Origin: a virus
Length of the DNA: 64,000 bases
IMG/VR virus record: IMGVR_UViG_3300021963_000037
Span: 1-64,000 of that record
Reading direction: 5' to 3' (one strand)
Under the pieces are notes generated by a model. That model was not told the DNA's origin, ran no database searches, and saw only the letters and a list, made by a program, of their open reading frames with translations. Shown piece by piece: positions 21-17,812 of this stretch. The position numbers and the translations under genes are program-made. Positions within the stretch are counted from its first letter, which is position 1. Every line of letters begins with the position of its first letter.

Positions 21-461
21 ATGACAAAGACAATTTTTAACACCGAAAGAATTAACCAAGTAGATTTCATCCAATCACGTAACGGACAGTTTAGAGCAAT
101 CGTTAAAGTTCAAGCTGGTTTCTTAACCGTAGTAGATGACTTAGGTATTCAATGTAAATGGGAATCAGGTGCCCAATGGAAATCAGCATTAAGTGTATTT
201 AAGAACTTTAAAAAAGGTGCCCTACAGACAATCCAATTTAAAGCAGAAGGTTCAGATAATTGGTTAACTGTATTTGCTCGTAAAGGTAATAAAATCGTTC
301 TTATGGACACGGAGATGTTCTTAACCATGAAAGTAGGTGATATTAACCAAGACTGGTCTAATACTAACCTATATAGTCAAACTAACTATGCATTAGCTGG
401 AGCTAAGACTTGGGCTGATTATGCATTTATCTCTAACGAAACCGAATTAGTTAACGCTTAA
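21..461 (+). CDS. Hypothetical protein, 146 aa
   Basis: I do not recognise this gene. It encodes a mostly beta-looking 146-residue protein without signal peptide, membrane segment or obvious catalytic motif; Trp and Lys residues are frequent. The start is the first ATG after an A-rich leader. It is followed 10 bases later by a tiny zinc-finger gene and then by the large noncoding region, so it is the last normal-sized gene before that region. Codon use matches the other phage genes. Real gene: likely; function: unknown. Confidence 0.75.
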   Translation: MTKTIFNTERINQVDFIQSRNGQFRAIVKVQAGFLTVVDDLGIQCKWESGAQWKSALSVFKNFKKGALQTIQFKAEGSDNWLTVFARKGNKIVLMDTEMFLTMKVGDINQDWSNTNLYSQTNYALAGAKTWADYAFISNETELVNA

Positions 462-471
462 AATATAAATT

Positions 472-609
472 ATGCTTAAAATCTTAAAAAGCATGTATAG
501 CACAGTTAAATGCCGAATTTGTGGACGTAACTGTGGTTCTATTGGTTCCGGTAATGCAATTAACGGAATGTGTGAAAGATGCTACGAGAATGGTGGAGAT
601 GATGAATAA
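472..609 (+). CDS. Zinc-ribbon microprotein, 45 aa
   Basis: The 45-residue frame starts at ATG 472, ten bases after the previous stop, and ends at TAA 607-609. Seen directly: Cys at residues 14, 17, 21, 34 and 37, arranged as CRIC-x3-C and MCERC, typical of a treble-clef or zinc-ribbon knuckle that holds one zinc ion. The tail is acidic (GGDDE). Such mini zinc fingers in phages usually bind nucleic acid or a host protein; the partner here is unknown. It directly abuts the GC-rich noncoding region, so a role there is possible but only inferred from position. Confidence 0.6.
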   Translation: MLKILKSMYSTVKCRICGRNCGSIGSGNAINGMCERCYENGGDDE

Positions 610-615
610 TCACCC

Positions 616-689
616 CCAGAAGTCACTCCGGTAACACTTCCAGGGTGACACTCCAGAAGTCACTCCGGCAACACTCCCAGGTGACACCT
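616..689 (+). repeat. Two tandem copies of a 37-bp repeat
   Basis: Copies start at 616 and 653 and share CCAGAAGTCACTCCGG, then a variable base, then AACACT and a CAGGTGACAC-like end. Each contains GTCAC and GTGAC, which are inverted repeats, so the pair can fold in alternative ways (for example 645-649 with 659-663). The repeat begins six bases after the stop codon of the zinc-ribbon gene and marks the left edge of the gene-free region. Confidence 0.7.
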
Positions 690-938
690 AGGGTGAATAT
701 ACTCCACTAGGTGTTGCTAGCCCCACTGTGCTCACCAGTCACCATCTTCATGTAGGTCACTCCAACCTTCCGGCACCCGCACCCAATAACCCTTAACCTA
801 TAAAGAAGGAACCTATATAGGTAAGGTAGGCATGGAAGAGTAGTAGGTGTCCGTTATAGGTGATCTAGGCTATATAGAGAAGGGGGTATAAGGAGGTAGA
901 GTGGGTTGGAGTCCGTACCTCTAGGTCTCAGGGTACTC

Positions 939-1052
939 AGGGTCTTCAGAGCCCTCAGCATGCCTAAGCGCAATTTAACGGGAGTTCTAGGAGTCAGGGT
1001 CCTAGAGCCATGCGCCGATCCTAGGTACCAGGATCCCAGGGTCCCAGAGCCA
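939..1052 (+). repeat. Three dispersed copies of an AGGGTC..AGAGCC motif
   Basis: Copies lie at 939-953 (AGGGTCTTCAGAGCC), 996-1010 (AGGGTCCTAGAGCCA) and 1038-1052 (AGGGTCCCAGAGCCA). The last two differ at one base. They lie in the candidate structured RNA and flank a perfect 6-bp hairpin at 1017-1035. A second short repeat, CCTAAGCGC, occurs at 963 and 1206. Confidence 0.6.
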
Positions 1053-1382
1053 CATAAACCAATTTGCCCGATTTCACGTGGTGTCGGTGTCCTTCAGGTG
1101 AAGGGTCATGACTTTAAATAATGTACTACTATAATTAACACCTATTGCATTTGTGTTTCACAGAAGCACACACATTATCACGGTCCGTCCGAGGACACCT
1201 TTCTACCTAAGCGCGCGACTCCGAGTCCTCAAAGGGCCCTTCTAACCTCCGAGGGCCAAGAAACCAATAAAAACCTATAAGAACTCAGAAAGACTAATAA
1301 GAACCGTTATAGAAACCTATATAAGACTCCAGAAGACCCGATCGAATGGGGCCCGTCCCCATCGTAACTTGGACTACTCTAA

Positions 1383-1466
1383 GGGCCCTCTCAGCGCTTT
1401 GACCATCCCCCAGGTCGGTTTTTTTCCCGGTCCGGAAAAGTCACCTCTACCCTAAAGCGAGGGCCC
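1383..1466 (+). other. Branched helical domain in the gene-free region
   Basis: GGGCCCT (1383-1389) pairs with AGGGCCC (1460-1466), and after a 5-base bulge CGCTTT (1395-1400) pairs with AAAGCG (1454-1459). The 13-bp stem encloses two hairpins: GACC/GGTC (1401-1404, 1413-1416) and TTTTCC/GGAAAA (1422-1427, 1434-1439). A closed stem with two inner hairpins is the signature of a multi-helix junction in a structured RNA. Confidence 0.5.
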
Positions 1467-1917
1467 GAGAACTTCTAGTCTCCATGGGTCTCCAAGGGCC
1501 ATTGAGTGGGGGTCACTTCTAGTCGATCGAGACTCCAACACAACTAGACACCGTTACTTAAAGAGATTTTATTTCTATTAGTACTATAACTACTATAAGA
1601 ACTTAGATTAGTAGTGTGGTGGTCGAGTTGGAGTCGTTCAGAGAAATCCGCTAGAAGGAGTCGTCGGGGAGGTCCAGTAGCTCACGGGAATCGGGGTCGC
1701 ACGAGGGTCCTACTGGATTTGGATTTGGTATTCTCTTCTAGTACTTAGACGGTTTGGAGGATGGGCCCAAGGTGGATAGGAGGCCCTGTGGTATAAAATT
1801 TCTTTAGGTACTTAAAGACTTATATACTGAAACAAGTTTAAAAATTTCTCTATAAGATAAGTAACGGAAAAATCCCCCATTGAAATTTCCCCCAATACCT
1901 TTAAAATTATAAATATT

Positions 1918-2151
1918 ATGATTAAAGTTCAACATACACAAATAGAGTCTTCGACAATTGACAGGACTAGCTACTATGCAGACACTAAAGAGCTCATTGT
2001 AACTTTTAAAAGTGGCACAGTCTATTCCTATCATGAAGTTGGGGCCGATGACTACAAAAAGTTCATCAACTCTACCAGCGCTGGACAAGCGTTAAACCAT
2101 TTCATTAAGAACAATTATCAATTCACAAAAGTAGAACAAGATGGCGAGTAA
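1918..2151 (+). CDS. KTSC domain protein, 77 aa
   Basis: Residues 10-72 fit the KTSC domain (named for a Lys-Thr-Ser-Cys tetrad found in some members): a Tyr-rich strand, then VTFKSGTVYSYHEV, then a helix ending in SAGQALNHFIKNNYQF. These roughly 60-residue domains occur alone or fused to lysyl-tRNA synthetase and phage proteins; their biochemical role is not established. The start is the first ATG after the gene-free region, behind an A/T-only leader. It overlaps the next gene by 11 bases, indicating translational coupling. Confidence 0.8.
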   Translation: MIKVQHTQIESSTIDRTSYYADTKELIVTFKSGTVYSYHEVGADDYKKFINSTSAGQALNHFIKNNYQFTKVEQDGE

Positions 2152-2413
2152 AAAAGCAGCTACTACTGGTTGGAAAACTAAGATGATGGAAACGTCGATC
2201 TTGGGAGTTAAAACTGGTAAAATGGGTCATGCAATGATATGTATGAACTCAAAACCTGAACTAAGTAAATATCCTCAAGCAGCTCCAGAAGATGGTGTAT
2301 GTGATCAATGGGTTTTTTCGAGTGTTGACTCGGCTTCAGTTCTTTGTAGTAATTGTGTTCAACGATTAATGCAAGTTAGTCCGAACAGAGTATCAACCCC
2401 AGAAAACGATTAA
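2141..2413 (+). CDS. Hypothetical Cys-containing protein, 90 aa
   Basis: Not recognised. It overlaps the KTSC gene by 11 bases, and its last base is the first base of the LOG-family gene, so the three are one translational unit. Cys residues occur as MICMN, GVCDQW and LCSNC, the spacing expected of a small zinc-binding domain, though this cannot be shown from sequence alone. There is no signal peptide or membrane segment. Confidence 0.7.
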   Translation: MASKKAATTGWKTKMMETSILGVKTGKMGHAMICMNSKPELSKYPQAAPEDGVCDQWVFSSVDSASVLCSNCVQRLMQVSPNRVSTPEND

Positions 2414-3075
2414 TGATGCCGCAAAAAGCAATCGACGCATGGCAAATTCTCCGAATCCAAGGAGAGTTTACACGACTATTTGATGAGATGTCGGACTTGG
2501 ACCGTCCTTGTATCGCCGTTTTCGGTTCTGCAAGAACTTCAACTGGTAATAAGTACTATCAAGAAGCAATTAAAGTTGGAGAACAGTTGACCGCTAAAGG
2601 ATTTGGAGTTATAACTGGCGGAGGTCCTGGAATAATGGAAGCCGCAAACTACGGAGCTAGTAGAAAAACTGGTCTTTCGGTTGGTTTGGGAATAGAACTT
2701 CCATTTGAGGCAAAGATGAACGACTATATCAACCGTGGTATTACCTGCCGTTACTTCTTCACTCGTAAAGTTTCACTTATAAAATATTCACAAGGATTTA
2801 TCGTCTTTCCAGGAGGACTAGGTACACTCGATGAACTATTTGAAGCTCTTACACTTGCTCAAACCGGACATGCTCCTAAATTTCCAATTATTCTAGTTGG
2901 AAAATCATATTGGACCGGTCTTATAGACTGGTTAAAATCTACGGTTCTTGCCGATGGTAAAATGTCAGAATCAGATTTTGAGTTATTCAGAATTGTTGAT
3001 ACTGCTGACGAGGCAGTTGAAAAGATTTTAATACATAATTCTAAGTACCGAACAGAAAACAAGCAAAATTTTTAA
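2413..3075 (+). CDS. LOG-family (TIGR00730-type) Rossmann-fold protein
   Basis: The family hydrolyses nucleotide N-glycosidic bonds; plant and bacterial LOG proteins release cytokinin bases from riboside 5'-monophosphates. Both signatures are present: GGGPGIMEAAN at residues 69-79 and PGGLGTLDE at 133-141, the latter carrying the catalytic Glu. The length of 220 residues is normal for the family. The older name 'lysine decarboxylase family' is misleading. The start overlaps the previous gene by one base. In a phage a nucleotide-salvage or nucleotide-signal role is more plausible than hormone synthesis, but the substrate is unknown. Confidence 0.88.
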   Translation: MMPQKAIDAWQILRIQGEFTRLFDEMSDLDRPCIAVFGSARTSTGNKYYQEAIKVGEQLTAKGFGVITGGGPGIMEAANYGASRKTGLSVGLGIELPFEAKMNDYINRGITCRYFFTRKVSLIKYSQGFIVFPGGLGTLDELFEALTLAQTGHAPKFPIILVGKSYWTGLIDWLKSTVLADGKMSESDFELFRIVDTADEAVEKILIHNSKYRTENKQNF

Positions 3076-3076
3076 T

Positions 3077-5095
3077 ATGGACCATATAGACGATTTAAAC
3101 AACGGACCAACCTCATCTAAAAAGGGTGGAAAGGGTAAAACTCCTTTCCTAGACCAATTTGGTGAAGACTTAACTCAAATGGCGGCTGAAGGCAAATTAG
3201 ACGCAATTATTGGTAGAGAAAAAGAAGTCCATAGAGTTTGCCAAATTCTTTCACGTAGAAAGAAAAACAATCCAATTATCTTGGGAGATCCAGGAGTTGG
3301 TAAAACTGCAATCGTTGAAGCTATTGCTCAACGTATTGTCGAGAAGAAAGTTGCAAGAACTCTCTTTAATAAAAGAATTGTATCTCTTAACCTGGCAAAT
3401 ATTGTAGCTGGTACAAAATACCGTGGAGAATTTGAAGAGAGAATGAAGGCAATTGTTGATGAGCTTAAAGCTAATCAAGATGTGATTGTCTTTGTTGATG
3501 AGATTCATACAATTATCGGTGCTGGAGGATCTAGTGGTTCTCTAGATGCTTCTAATATCTTAAAACCTGCCCTTGCAAGAGGACAAGTTCACTGTATTGG
3601 CGCTACAACATCTGATGAGTATCGAGAACATATTGAACAGGATGGAGCCTTAACTCGTCGTTTTCAAGAAGTTTTTATCGATCCACCAACAATTGATGAG
3701 ACAATCGAAATCTTAAATAGAATTAAAGACAAGTACGAAGACCACCATGCAGTAACTTATACGTCAGAAGCTATTGAAGCTTGCGTTAAAATGTCTGAAA
3801 GATATATCACTCAACGTGAACTTCCAGACAAGGCTATTGATGTGATGGACGAAGTTGGTTCTAAAATTCATTTGCTAGAAATTAAGGTTCCTTCTCATGT
3901 AAAAAAGATGGAGACTGATGCTGAAGAATTCGGTAAGCAAAAGCACGAAGCTGTTGCAAAACAAGATTATGAAGAGGCTGCAAAGTACAGAGACTTAGAA
4001 CTTTCTAAGAAAAAAGAAATTGACCAAAAAATAAAAGATTGGGAAAAGAGCTTACGAGATAAAAAACGTAATGTAACTGACCAGGATGTTGCTAATACAA
4101 TTGCAGAAATTACTGGAATACCGGTTGCCAGATTAAACGGTGACGAGAGTAAAATGATACTGAATATGAATAAAGAACTCAAGAAGTTAATTATTGGTCA
4201 GGATCAAGCGGTCGATTCTTTATGTAAGGTTATTAAACGATCTAGAGCAGGAGTTTCCTCAGCTAAAAAACCTTTAGGGTCATTCATGTTTATCGGTCCT
4301 ACTGGAGTCGGTAAAACTGAAACTGTTAAAGCACTTTCTGAATATTACTTTGGTTCCGAAGATAATTTGATCCGAGTTGACTGTAGCGAATACCAAGAGA
4401 AGTTTACTGTTTCTCGTCTAGTTGGAGCTCCTCCAGGATATGTTGGTTATGAAGAAGGCGGTCAATTAACTGAGCAAGTTCGTCGTAAACCTTATTCAGT
4501 GGTTCTATTTGACGAGATTGAAAAAGCACATCCAGATATTTTTAACACTCTACTTCAGGTATTAGATGATGGTAGGTTAACAGACTCACTAGGTAGAACT
4601 ATTGATTTTACTAACACTATTATCATTATGACTTCAAATATTGGTGCTCGTAAATTCTCTGAATTTGGTATCGGAATTGGTTTTCAAACTGATGTATCTG
4701 AAGCTACACAAAAAGCTAAAATGGAATCAGTTATTCGTAAAGAACTTAAGAACAAGTTCCCACCTGAATTCTTAAACCGTTTAGATGATATGGTTCTATT
4801 TGAACAATTATCAGAAGATTCTATTCTTAAGATTGTTGATATTGAATTGACTGACGTTTGCGAGAGATTATTCGATCAGGGAATTCAAATCAAATTTACA
4901 AAAACAGCAAAACTATTTTTAGTAAAAGAAGGATATGATGTTGCTTATGGTGCTAGACCTTTAAAAAGAGCAATTCAAAGTCATGTAGAAGATTTATTAG
5001 CTGATGCTATTATCGATAAAACTATAACTCCTTCAGACGAGTTCTATTATACGATTACCTTCGACAAGGAATTGAATAAACTTTATATCCAATAA
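3077..5095 (+). CDS. ClpA/ClpC-like AAA+ unfoldase lacking the N-domain
   Basis: A double-ring ATPase that unfolds proteins and feeds them to ClpP. Seen: first Walker A GDPGVGKT (residues 70-77) with Walker B VIVFVDEIHT; a UVR-like middle segment (YEEAAKYRD) as in ClpC; second Walker A GPTGVGKT with VVLFDEIEKAH; and the Clp D2-small domain with GARPLKRAI. It is 672 residues long, and the first AAA domain follows almost directly after a 30-residue linker, so the Clp N-terminal adaptor-binding repeats are missing. After SNIGARKF an IGF tripeptide sits where ClpA/ClpC/ClpX carry the ClpP-docking loop. A ClpP-like gene lies 1.2 kb downstream, so the two probably form a complete phage protease. 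Confidence 0.93.
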   Translation: MDHIDDLNNGPTSSKKGGKGKTPFLDQFGEDLTQMAAEGKLDAIIGREKEVHRVCQILSRRKKNNPIILGDPGVGKTAIVEAIAQRIVEKKVARTLFNKRIVSLNLANIVAGTKYRGEFEERMKAIVDELKANQDVIVFVDEIHTIIGAGGSSGSLDASNILKPALARGQVHCIGATTSDEYREHIEQDGALTRRFQEVFIDPPTIDETIEILNRIKDKYEDHHAVTYTSEAIEACVKMSERYITQRELPDKAIDVMDEVGSKIHLLEIKVPSHVKKMETDAEEFGKQKHEAVAKQDYEEAAKYRDLELSKKKEIDQKIKDWEKSLRDKKRNVTDQDVANTIAEITGIPVARLNGDESKMILNMNKELKKLIIGQDQAVDSLCKVIKRSRAGVSSAKKPLGSFMFIGPTGVGKTETVKALSEYYFGSEDNLIRVDCSEYQEKFTVSRLVGAPPGYVGYEEGGQLTEQVRRKPYSVVLFDEIEKAHPDIFNTLLQVLDDGRLTDSLGRTIDFTNTIIIMTSNIGARKFSEFGIGIGFQTDVSEATQKAKMESVIRKELKNKFPPEFLNRLDDMVLFEQLSEDSILKIVDIELTDVCERLFDQGIQIKFTKTAKLFLVKEGYDVAYGARPLKRAIQSHVEDLLADAIIDKTITPSDEFYYTITFDKELNKLYIQ

Positions 5096-12970: not shown

Positions 12971-15946
12971 GTGTCAGTAATTAAAATTAAACAGGTACAA
13001 AGCCTAGAAACTACAATAACATCGTTAGACACTAGAATTAGTGCTATTCCTGCAGGTGCTCAAGGATCACAAGGTCGACAAGGTCCTCAAGGAATCATTG
13101 GTTCTACTGGAGCACAAGGAAACCAAGGACCTACTGGATTTCAAGGAAACCAAGGACCAACAGGTATTCAAGGAACTGTTGGAGCTCAAGGAAATCAAGG
13201 ACCAACAGGTATTCAAGGAACTTTTGGAACACAAGGTGCTCAAGGTCGTCAAGGACCGCAAGGAAACCAAGGACCTACTGGATTTCAAGGAAATCAAGGT
13301 CCAACTGGATTACAAGGAACTGTTGGAGCACAAGGAAATCAAGGACCAACTGGATTACAAGGAACTACAGGTTCTCAAGGAAATCAAGGTCCAACTGGAT
13401 TACAAGGAACTACAGGTTCTCAAGGAAATCAAGGACCAACTGGATTACAAGGAACTGCCGGAACTACAGGTGGACAAGGTACTCTAGGTAACTTTGGTGG
13501 AGACTCTGCGTTATGGAGAGTTAGTTTATTTAGTGCACCTTTAGCAGATCCTGGTATTGGTAGAATTAATTTTAATGGAGCATCTGCTTCAACATCCGCA
13601 GACCTATATATTAGTACTCAAGATATTTTATCAATAAATCAAGCAAACTGGCTAGCTGCAATGGGAGCTAGTACAAATATTCCAGAAGGATCTTTACGAA
13701 TTTCTAAAAATGGAAACAATTCTATTTTTGCAGATTATCAAATTACTTTAGTAACTAATTTAACAACATATTACGACATTAAGGTAACATTAGTTTCTTC
13801 TAATGGATCCTTTGTCGCTGGAGATGATACAGTTGTTTCATTTACTCGAGCTGGAGATAAAGGAGCACAAGGTTCTCAAGGTGCAACAGGTTCTCAAGGA
13901 ATTACAGGTGCTCAAGGAACTCAAGGTCCTACTGGATTCCAAGGAGTTATCGGTTCTACAGGTGCTCAAGGAAACCAAGGTCCAACAGGTATTCAAGGAA
14001 CAGTTGGACAACAAGGAAACCAAGGACCAACTGGTATTCAAGGAACAGTTGGAACAACTGGAACTCAAGGTCGTCAAGGACCACAAGGAAACCAAGGACC
14101 AACCGGTATAACAGGTGCTCAAGGAAACCAAGGTCCAACAGGTATTCAAGGAACAGTTGGACAACAAGGAAACCAAGGACCAACTGGTATTCAAGGAACT
14201 TTAGGTTCTCAAGGTTCAACTGGTGCTCAAGGAGCATTAGGAGCTCAAGGTTATCAAGGTACTACAGGACAAGGATTTATAATCTATCAAACATATAATA
14301 GTTTAGCATTACTTTTAGCTGATAACACTTGTCCAAACGGACAATTTGGTTTAGTTGGAGGTTCTCTACCGCAGTCAGATCCTGATTATGGTAAATTATA
14401 TTTAAGAACTGGAGGAGCATGGTCTTTTACAACTGACATGTCGATCCAAGGTATACAAGGTTCAACAGGAGCTCAAGGTTCAACAGGAGCTCAAGGAGCT
14501 ACAGGCCTTCAAGGAATTCAAGGACCAACTGGTCTTCAAGGAATTACTGGAGCACAAGGAAACCAAGGACCAACTGGTCTTCAAGGAATTACTGGAGCAC
14601 AAGGAAACCAAGGACCAACTGGTCTTCAAGGACTTCAAGGTATTATTGGTACACAAGGAGCTCTTGGTGCACAAGGTCGTCAAGGACCTACTGGTCCAAC
14701 TGGAGCACAAGGAAACCAAGGACCAACAGGTATTCAAGGAACCTTTGGAGCACAAGGAAACCAAGGACCAACAGGTCCCGGATCATCAGTCGCTGGACCT
14801 CAAGGTAATCAAGGTCCTGTTGGAACCGGTTCTCAAGGTGCAACAGGTGCTCAAGGTCGTCAAGGTCCATCTGGAATTGATGGAATAGCAGGAGCAAATG
14901 GTATTCAAGGAGCCGCTGGAACAAACGGAAGTAATGGTGCTGCAGGCCCACAAGGTGTTCAAGGACCAACAGGTCCTCAAGGAACTGCAGGTAGTAATGG
15001 AACAAATGGAACACCTTCATCTGTTGCCGGTCCTCAAGGTGCTCAAGGTCCTACAGGACCAGGTTCAACAGTAGCTGGACCTGCCGGTCCACAAGGACGT
15101 CAAGGACCTACTGGACCACCAGCAACAAATGGTACAAATGGAAATCAAGGAAATCAAGGACCTGCTGGTCCTCCAGGAGGCGGAGGATCTCCAGGACCTC
15201 AAGGTGCACAAGGTTATACTGGACCAGTATCAACAACTCCTGGCCCTCCAGGCCCTCCAGGTCCTGCAACATACGATGCAAGTAGTGTTAGTGGTGTAGG
15301 TATTAGTCGATTTGTATATGGTGACGGAGACAAGAAGAGTGCACAAATGAATGATTCAAATCAATATAATCAAGCATCTGGTTTCTTCTTCATGCCGCCA
15401 AGTACAAATGGAGCACACTCTGGAGATTGGCAAACTTGTATGCATGCGATGGGTAACTCATGGTCATCTAACTATGGATTCCAACTTCAACATGATTTTC
15501 ATAATGACTCATTTGGAGTACGAAGAGTAACCAATGGCGGATTTGGAGGTTGGAGAGAACTCTTAACTGTTACGAACTGGACATCTTATATTACTAATAA
15601 TGGTTATGCAAATGCAATGAACCAGTATGTTAATACAAACTCTAGTCCAACATTTACTGATGTTACTATTAGTTCTGACTCTAGATTAAAAGAAGATATT
15701 GAAACTATAGATAATGCATTACAAACAGTTGAATCTCTTAGAGGTGTTCAATTTAAACTTAAGAATGCTCTGACAGATAGATTAAGAACTGGTGTAATTG
15801 CACAAGAAATCGAACAAGTCCTACCTGATATTGTAGTTGACGGAGTAGATGGATATAAAAAGGTAAGCTATAATGATTTAATTGGAGTCTTAATTGAAGC
15901 TATTAAAGAATTATCAGAAAAAGTTAAAAACTTAGAAAATAAATAA
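12971..15946 (+). CDS. Collagen-like tail fibre with S74 self-cleaving chaperone domain
   Basis: A 991-residue fibre starting at GTG. Gly-X-Y collagen blocks cover roughly residues 30-176, 295-434 and 490-766, mainly GNQGPTG, GIQGT and GAQG triplets, separated by globular inserts (177-294 and 435-489). A beta domain follows, and from about residue 900 comes the intramolecular chaperone domain of peptidase family S74 (SDSRLKEDI with the catalytic Ser, then [13 protein letters not shown]), which in phage fibres trimerises the shaft and cuts itself off. Thr in GPT triplets is very frequent, as in the O-glycosylated BclA spore collagen. It is flanked by glycosyltransferase, methyltransferase and hydroxylase genes. 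The DNA of the blocks is repetitive and open to copy-number change. Confidence 0.93.
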
Positions 15947-15947
15947 T

Positions 15948-16718
15948 ATGCAAGCAAGAATCGACTATATCGTTCAATATAATGTTGCACCTTTGGATAA
16001 AGACAAACAATCAAAATGTTATGTTTATGACCCAAATTTAAATATTCTGTTTTCACATCAGAATTTTTACCTTTGGACTATGAACCCATTTGATATGCCT
16101 ATTATCGAAGACACTATAACTAGATTTTCAAGCAGTATTGCTGGTAAAAAAGTATTAGTAGTTGGACATGGAATTGGTATGATGAACTCTCTAATTAGAG
16201 ATTTAGAACCAGCAGAACATTGGATTATTGAAGCAAATAAAGATCAAAGAGACAGAATGGAAGTTGCTGGATTTGTCAATGAAGGAACAACGCATATTAT
16301 TGATGATCGTTGGGAAGATTCAACTCGAGCAGATGGATTTCCTGATGATTTTGACTTCATATATTATAATGTAGGATTTGATGCATATCCAGAAGATTAC
16401 AATGGTATCTTTGGATTTGCAAATCAAGTTGATAAATTCTTAAATGAAGATGGAATCTTTACATGGTGGGCATGTAACAATTCTCGTATGTATAAGACGA
16501 TTATTGTTAACGAATCTGAAGAGGTACCATGTAGCATAAAATTAATTCTAGAAGACAATGGATTTACAGTGCAAGACTCTATTATAGAATTAGAACCTCA
16601 AGTAGTTCCTGAAACTTATGATGTTGTACCATCTCATTTATTTCAAAAATCTAAATATTTAGATGGTTACAAGTATCAACAAAGATGGATTCAAAAAAAT
16701 ACTATTAACCAACCATGA
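15948..16718 (+). CDS. Predicted SAM-dependent methyltransferase
   Basis: A class I methyltransferase-like Rossmann domain: motif I KKVLVVGHGIGMMNSL at residues 67-82, the acidic ribose-binding residue in HWIIEANKD (Glu95), and a post-II DDFDFIYYNVGFDA strand. The arrangement resembles guanidinoacetate/arginine N-methyltransferase-like proteins, but the acceptor cannot be read from sequence. It starts one base after the fibre stop and overlaps the Hint-domain gene by four bases, so it is co-translated with both; modification of a fibre protein or a surface glycan is a reasonable inference. Confidence 0.72.
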   Translation: MQARIDYIVQYNVAPLDKDKQSKCYVYDPNLNILFSHQNFYLWTMNPFDMPIIEDTITRFSSSIAGKKVLVVGHGIGMMNSLIRDLEPAEHWIIEANKDQRDRMEVAGFVNEGTTHIIDDRWEDSTRADGFPDDFDFIYYNVGFDAYPEDYNGIFGFANQVDKFLNEDGIFTWWACNNSRMYKTIIVNESEEVPCSIKLILEDNGFTVQDSIIELEPQVVPETYDVVPSHLFQKSKYLDGYKYQQRWIQKNTINQP

Positions 16719-17812
16719 GTAAAATAGCATATTATGACGGATACACACTTTCGCAATTAAGAGAATTAGTTGCGTGTGGACTTGGAGGTTATAACACCGC
16801 GTCAAACATAAGAAGTTTATTTGCTGGATATGCATCGACTGGAAATATGGCATTTGCAACATATAGTTGGATTGATAGCAGATGTTGGACACTAAATGTT
16901 TATGATGGATCAGGATACGTTGCTGTTACTTCACCATGGAATTCAGGTTACACAAGTAGTCATTATCCACCACAATCATATGCTGTCACGTCTAATAATA
17001 ATCCATGGGTTACAATTGATGCATATGGAGATACTGGTTACACCTTTAGTTATTGGATGAGAACTGATCCGTTCGAAGTGTGGTCTTATAATGCAAATAT
17101 ATCTTATTATGTACCGACTGCTGGATGGGAAGGCACATATCGAATTGGTGCCGCATTTGGTTACTCAGCACCACCATCAAATTGTAATTCGTATACATTG
17201 TACGCATATGAATATTATTCAGGCATTGATTGTATTGGTAATTACATGTATGATTATAATTACGCTCAAACTGATATGTGCCTTCAAAGACTTGATTATG
17301 GTGGTTATCAGAATGGAGGTATATGTGACCCTAACTGTTTGGTTAAAGGAACTACTGTTGAAATGGCAGATGGAACAACTAAGTTAATTGAAAAAATTAG
17401 AGTTGGTGATATTTTAAAAGGTATGAAAATCAGTGATGCACCTGATGATGATACTATTATTGGTTGGTCAACAACAGATTTAAATTTAACAGAAAATCCT
17501 GTTAGAGTAACTGGAATTGTTCCAGTTCTTTCTAAAGGAATCTATAACTTTAACAATGGTCTACTTGAATCTACTGGAGATCATGCTCATTTTATTAAAA
17601 GAGAAGATACTTGGCTATTTAAAAAAGCAAAAGAAGTTTTAGTAGGCGATTTCTTAGTTGATAAACAAGGAAATAGTATTGAGATAACTTCTATCACTAC
17701 AACAGAAGGAGATGAACGTAAAATTGTATATGATATGAACGTTGAAACTGAAGATACATTTATTGCAAATGGTTTGATTACACACAACAGACCTATAAAA
17801 GAAATTCAATAA
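16715..17812 (+). CDS. Tyr/Ser-rich protein with intact C-terminal Hint (intein-like) domain
   Basis: Residues 1-204 form a Tyr-, Trp-, Ser- and Asn-rich beta domain like fibre tips or secreted proteins. Residues 208-358 are a Hint domain with every autocatalytic residue: Cys208 opening CLVKGTTVEMADG, the block-B motif TGDHAH (Thr287, His290), and the terminal ITHN (His357, Asn358). After Asn358 comes Arg, not the Cys/Ser/Thr needed for splicing, followed by only six more residues. It should therefore cleave rather than splice, as bacterial intein-like domains do, possibly leaving a reactive thioester on the N-terminal part. Cotranslated with the methyltransferase (ATGA) and closed by a terminator. 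Confidence 0.88.
   Translation: MSKIAYYDGYTLSQLRELVACGLGGYNTASNIRSLFAGYASTGNMAFATYSWIDSRCWTLNVYDGSGYVAVTSPWNSGYTSSHYPPQSYAVTSNNNPWVTIDAYGDTGYTFSYWMRTDPFEVWSYNANISYYVPTAGWEGTYRIGAAFGYSAPPSNCNSYTLYAYEYYSGIDCIGNYMYDYNYAQTDMCLQRLDYGGYQNGGICDPNCLVKGTTVEMADGTTKLIEKIRVGDILKGMKISDAPDDDTIIGWSTTDLNLTENPVRVTGIVPVLSKGIYNFNNGLLESTGDHAHFIKREDTWLFKKAKEVLVGDFLVDKQGNSIEITSITTTEGDERKIVYDMNVETEDTFIANGLITHNRPIKEIQ

Follow-up and report, generated by a model that had tools for sequence, protein, structure and literature searches.

A conserved, gene-free G+C-rich element in a large phage family: a probable long RNA of a new kind, or a site for replication or packaging

Introduction

What purpose might 1.3 kb of DNA without genes serve in a phage genome that is otherwise densely coding? 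This question is raised by positions 610 to 1917 of the window analyzed here, which covers positions 1 to 64,000 of an IMG/VR virus record of 139,480 bp. Large noncoding stretches of phages are recognized mainly through conserved RNA folds, and a first-pass annotation of this DNA had suggested a giant, ornate RNA like GOLLD or ROOL but of a new, larger class, naming an origin, a packaging site or foreign DNA as alternatives. Our analysis of the element and its relatives indicates that it is probably a long phage RNA of a new kind or else a site of replication or packaging.

Results

Coding status and composition

Across the 139,480 bp, the longest stretch without an open reading frame (ORF) of at least 80 codons spans positions 462 to 1803 (1,342 nucleotides [nt]), the runner-up being 565 nt long. 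Stop codons occur in each of the six frames of the element at 4.4 to 7.0 per 100 codons, and a search for signatures of protein coding revealed no open frame, no 3-nt periodicity, no indels in threes and no coding relic. The initial impression that no plausible gene lies at 610 to 1917 was thus confirmed. Coding on the plus strand accounts for 133 kb of the 139-kb phage genome, and since this noncoding element stands in an all-plus operon, it may be a large RNA; its plus orientation is assigned on the same basis.

The G+C content of the element is 47.4%, about 14 points higher than that of the genome (33.1%), with individual 1-kb segments peaking at 49.6%. The contrast noted earlier is therefore real, although the value of ∼55% given for it was too high. 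About 0.2% of segments of the element's length are richer in G+C, and these either adjoin the element or fall in a fiber gene at 13 to 15.5 kb. This gene (window positions 12971 to 15946), which encodes collagen-like Gly-X-Gln/Pro repeats, is the window's other G+C-rich stretch. Beside the fiber genes, the protein encoded at 16715 to 17812 ends in a putative Hint/intein-like module (CLVKGTTVEMADG ... TFIANGLITHN) that was recognized by eye.

Relatives and database searches

A ThyA-alignment search yielded 53 loci, many of which have an ORF-free, G+C-richer gap of 0.7 to 1.7 kb at the matching place. In dozens of contigs from IMG/VR, homologues of the element, 0.7 to 1.5 kb long, occupy the same syntenic position ahead of the genes for the Zn and Clp proteins. 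The corresponding region lies immediately ahead of the KTSC gene in L004 and L005 (63% identity) and also in L002 and L003, where it is cut by contig ends. We assigned the window, L004 and L002 to group A; L048, L051, L053, L055, L063, L079, L081 and others to group B; L047, L050, L054, L064 to L074 and L080 to group C; and L075, L077 and L078 to group E. Position and words of similar appearance are all that tie group D (L084 and L085) to the others. Profile searches with nhmmer linked groups A and B (E ∼5e-9), C and E (6e-13), and B and E (2e-4).

Rfam cmscan at the gathering threshold, applied to the window and seven loci, returned no match except one tRNA, the covariance models of GOLLD, ROOL and OLE included, and in E-value mode positions 460 to 2000 gave two snoRNA hits at chance level. 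No match to the element was obtained by blastn against GenBank phages. A pattern scan of GTDB produced 14 hits, mostly in G+C-rich bacteria and no more than expected by chance, and no relative of the 90-amino-acid (aa) protein encoded downstream was found there. Exact-pattern scans of IMG/VR detected no carriers beyond the relatives found first, and searches of published open-access papers found no description of the element. The first-pass interpretation is supported insofar as this is a large, conserved noncoding element of a phage lineage that Rfam lacks. Foreign DNA is unlikely, because the element is both conserved and syntenic.

Neighboring genes

Upstream of the element lies the gene for g21 (21 to 461, plus strand), a 146-aa protein of no known family whose AlphaFold model has a pLDDT of 48; a homologue of g21 also precedes the element in groups A, B and E. 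A promoter-like sequence, TATATTTACAT, precedes g21 in most listed members of these groups. The form TAT(A/T)TTTACAT, which resembles the Bacteroidota -7 element, was observed upstream of the g21 homologues of L004, L048, L051, L053, L055, L078 and L081, whereas no such sequence was seen ahead of the L079 gene. The zinc-ribbon microprotein that had seemed a suggestive neighbor (CxxC/CxxC, 45 aa; 472 to 609, plus strand) is indeed present in the window phage, but it was seen nowhere else, and L004 has no gene at that place.

Directly downstream in group A is a gene for a KTSC-domain protein (1918 to 2151, plus strand; Pfam PF13619, E 3e-16; 79 to 82% identity in alignment A1). It is followed on the same strand (2141 to 5095) by conserved neighbors encoding the Zn-binding-like 90-aa protein, a LOG/lysine-decarboxylase-like enzyme and a ClpA-like ATPase.

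In groups B, C and E, a gene for a disordered, S/T/P/N/K-rich protein lies directly upstream of the element (L048, 1832 to 2542; L053, 5556 to 6278; L054, 3746 to 4279; L075, 446 to 1108). The center of the protein holds a conserved motif that looks helical, its C terminus is basic (P-K/R), and no Pfam family was found for it; its gene is among the fastest evolving in this region. Group A has no disordered protein beside the element. We also observed a single tRNA-Ser (TGA) at 136652 to 136737 of G000 (12652 to 12737 of L106), ∼2.7 kb from the contig's other end and, were the genome to close, ∼3.4 kb away from the element, and a tRNA-Arg ∼2.2 kb upstream of the element in L054.

Sequence words

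All parts of the element are given on the plus strand. Its 5' end (616 to 690) is an array of degenerate words with a period of ∼12 to 13 nt (CCAGAAGTCACTC / CGGTAACACTTC / CAGGGTGACACTC ...), evident from a direct repeat (616 to 644 and 653 to 681, 93% match) and from autocorrelation peaks at 12/13, 24/25 and 36/37. Comparable arrays made of other words were found in L004, L053 and L084; such an array marks the 5' start in groups A, B and D. Groups A and B, linked by nhmmer, share a core (GGGTCATGACTT ... TTTCACAGAAGNNCACACATTATCACGGTCCG; 1101 to 1190) with the pattern GTTTCANANAAGNNNAC(N2-5)TTATCNCGGTCCG. Alignment with L004 and L002 revealed a further conserved block, ATCGAATGGGGCCCGTCCCCATCGTAACTTGGACTACT..AGGGCCCT, at 1341 to 1392. 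The conserved CGGTTTTTTTCCCGGTCCGGAAA at 1416 to 1438 has a group B counterpart, CCCAAAAAATTACCCGGTCCGGAA, at the matching place. Alignment and inspection of the 3' end (1827 to 1893) showed CTGAAACAA together with AAATTTC(C) words, which also occur close to the 3' terminus of the group B, D and E elements.

Each group is distinguished by strand-specific words: TCAATG in group B (56 versus 3.3 expected), CACTCC in group A (10 versus 0.9) and TTAGAG in group C (11 versus 1.2). CTYARAGG occurs 29 times in all groups together, versus 4 times for its reverse complement. The flanks of TCAATG in group B are complementary (P < 0.0005). CTYARAG was ruled out as a hairpin loop, its flanks not being complementary. 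Within group B elements, a ∼25-nt module, GGTACTGTGTCAGGCACGAAGTGTACT, appears at two different places in the manner of a small mobile hairpin (L048, ∼3460 to 3500 and ∼3880 to 3910; L055, ∼6160; L060, ∼240; L081, ∼6640).

Secondary structure

Perfect Watson-Crick inverted repeats (stem of at least 6, loop of 3 to 30) number 18 in the window element versus 8.8 in dinucleotide shuffles (z 3.2) and 23 versus 7.2 in L004 (z 5.5); an example is the hairpin ACACCTAG - 15-nt loop - CTAGGTGT at 684 to 714. In groups A to D they are about twice as frequent as expected by chance, with a weak excess in E. The ClpA control showed no excess. Exact helices thus exceed chance, as first reported, but "heavily structured" was too strong a description. 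The fold energy of 610 to 1560 has a z of -0.96 on the plus and -1.25 on the minus strand, and half-elements average -1.6 and -1.5, respectively, versus -2.4 to -4.2 for the own strand of bacterial RNase P RNA from five genomes, our positive control. Fold stability is therefore modest and equal on both strands.

We then followed hairpins (stem of at least 6) from one sequence into relatives that were 61 to 84% identical. In RNase P RNA, positions changed on both sides were still paired in 79% of cases (45/57), the parallel control giving 44%. The corresponding values were 48% (20/42) versus 35% in group A and 41% (49/119) versus 54% in group B, and in group C none of three such changes was still paired. 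Among single changes, G-U was not favored over A-C in the element (0.21 versus 0.30 in A; 0.23 versus 0.24 in B), compared with 0.34 versus 0.27 in RNase P RNA. A column-wise search for compensatory helices found antiparallel helices to be no commoner than parallel ones in any group, except for a small excess of local helices in B with Watson-Crick-only pairing; the same search on RNase P RNA recovered helices of 8 to 10 bp with 3 to 4 compensations from single sequence pairs. RNAalifold gave the group B alignment an energy z of -4.0 on the plus and -4.3 on the minus strand, with a covariance term no better than that of column shuffles. A deeper alignment could change the outcome of these compensatory tests.

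A hairpin test tolerating a slip of 2 nt showed a weak excess. This excess was larger when wobble was allowed for the minus strand in groups A and B and for the plus strand in C, so that structure does not reveal the strand. True-looking cases were nevertheless seen by eye, namely a hairpin with a changed stem (GTGTTT/AAGCAC in the window, CACTTT/AAGTG in L004) and stems flanking a conserved GAAAC in group B; for this reason local hairpins may matter. One fixed global fold is not supported, and the element falls outside GOLLD, ROOL and OLE by model as well as by covariation. The earlier proposal of an ornate RNA of that kind had named, as one refutation, homologues that do not preserve the helices through compensatory change, and this is largely what the hairpin comparison, with RNase P RNA as control, revealed for the homologues found.

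Evolution of the element

In group B, the element diverges more than third codon positions of ClpA (82% versus 92% identity between L048 and L051), with a transition/transversion ratio of 0.82 versus 2.05; because ClpA evolves slowly, this comparison does not provide a neutral rate. The changes are clustered and lack 3-nt periodicity, and indels are not in threes. Pairwise alignment plainly shows replacement of multibase blocks, with conserved words between them. Loop inversion was considered for these blocks and rejected, as GGGGGA/TCCCCT was the sole case, no more than in controls. The second fast spot in group B is the disordered-protein gene just upstream (67 to 87% identity, compared with 95 to 99% for most downstream genes). 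In group C, L050 and L054 show no excess divergence of the element, and near-identical phages carry one 3-base change in it among five differences in 20 kb, too few for a conclusion.

Discussion

We tentatively favor, at slightly less than an even chance, the explanation that the element is a long, fast-evolving noncoding RNA of the phage g21-Clp operon, acting through repeated words and exchangeable hairpins as a decoy or scaffold; we infer its transcription, strand, partner and role. The RNA would be read in the plus direction within an operon of the order g21, (small coiled protein, disordered protein), element, Zn/KTSC protein and Clp. Linear words of sequence and short hairpins that can be exchanged would carry its function, and not a single conserved ornate fold. 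As a multivalent RNA, it would offer its repeated strand-specific words (the 5' 12-nt array, TCAATG, CACTCC, CTYARAGG and similar ones) as binding sites to numerous molecules of a protein, from phage or host, or of a host RNA. The disordered protein encoded just upstream possibly takes part in groups B, C and E, and quick replacement of words would mirror an arms race with a bound host partner. We consider it unlikely, if conceivable, that a new class of word-array RNAs, conserved in locus and not in fold, forms with the fast-evolving disordered protein a ribonucleoprotein or condensate sequestering a host factor in such a race.

The RNA reading is consistent with the conserved locus, the lack of coding, the homology between groups, the G+C surplus and the fact that this is the genome's only large noncoding stretch. 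The all-plus genome, the promoter-like motif, the strand-biased words, the complementary TCAATG flanks, the 5' array, the inverted-repeat excess and the fast block-wise change in group B also count for it. Against it stand the equal fold stability of both strands, the disagreeing strand signals of the slip-tolerant test, the missing disordered protein in group A, the slow yardstick ClpA and the two group C members without excess divergence. Moreover, protein-binding DNA would account just as well for the words and inverted repeats, and contig ends near the element fit a terminus, a packaging site or a recombination spot.

The latter points lead to the main rival, which we regard as doubtful but serious: a DNA element, that is, a replication origin, a packaging (pac/cos) site or a genome terminus. 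Its word arrays would be protein-binding iterons, its A/T-tract 3' words (AAATTTTCCC) a duplex-opening region and its inverted repeats products of template switching. The periodic direct repeats of the 5' end and the A/T-tract words near the 3' end agree with this, as do inverted repeats that are enriched equally on both strands and not conserved. In addition, the 28 listed IMG/VR contigs tend to end in the element or shortly before it, 23 of them at most 5 kb away and 8 of them inside it versus 1.9 expected, although this clustering may equally stem from strain diversity, upstream repeats or the way in which the loci were found. However, the places at which the element is cut vary from contig to contig, which speaks against a single cut site, and in two contigs of 200 to 236 kb the element is far from the ends. 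Neither strand nor skew switches at the element, and its G+C content is far above that of the genome, whereas replication origins are usually A+T-rich.

It is decidedly unlikely that the element is an ornate RNA like GOLLD or ROOL whose conserved helices are hidden by shallow or shifted alignments. The RNAalifold energy in group B, the changing-stem hairpins (window/L004 and the GAAAC stems) and the weak slip-tolerant excess would suit it, and long G+C-rich intergenic regions are a recognized hunting ground for structured RNAs (PMC8723152). Yet both the rigid and the hairpin-following tests gave chance levels, while RNase P RNA passes them with fewer sequences, and neither the covariance term nor Rfam yielded a signal. 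It is very improbable that the region is decayed coding DNA, or an unusually long spacer or leader that only regulates the downstream Zn/Clp genes at the level of translation or stability. Its place inside a co-directional operon and its end near the next start codon would fit this reading, but its length and G+C content are too great for a neutral spacer, its words and position are conserved, and 3-nt periodicity and coding relics are missing.

The locus is conserved across a broad phage family, and comparative-fold searches would miss it, because hairpins turn over while words and position persist. If transcribed, the element would add to the known giant phage RNAs and raise the question of how a long RNA lacking a fixed fold acts in infection; as an origin or packaging site, it would mark where replication or packaging starts in a large uncultured phage family.

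The element is like phage origins and pac sites in its direct-repeat array, inverted repeats and A/T-tract words at one end. It differs from them in its G+C richness, unchanged skew, scattered contig breaks and strand-specific words throughout. GOLLD and ROOL are giant RNAs of phages and prophages, often near tRNA islands and of unknown function (PMC12286853). The element is like them in being ORF-free, ∼0.6 to 1 kb long, phage encoded and of unknown role, with the tRNA-Ser near the contig's other end; in contrast to them, it has no Rfam match, its helices are not kept by compensatory change, it turns over fast and it lies outside any tRNA island in the window. In ICP1, an ∼800-nt noncoding RNA from an ∼1-kb ORF-less space is the most abundant transcript (PMC7567579). 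The likeness is that of a lytic phage with a single ∼1-kb ORF-less space, although the transcript is observed in ICP1 and putative for our element, for which blastn against GenBank phages gave no match. At most, then, the element would resemble GOLLD, ROOL and the ICP1 transcript by analogy, in the way that these large phage RNAs work.
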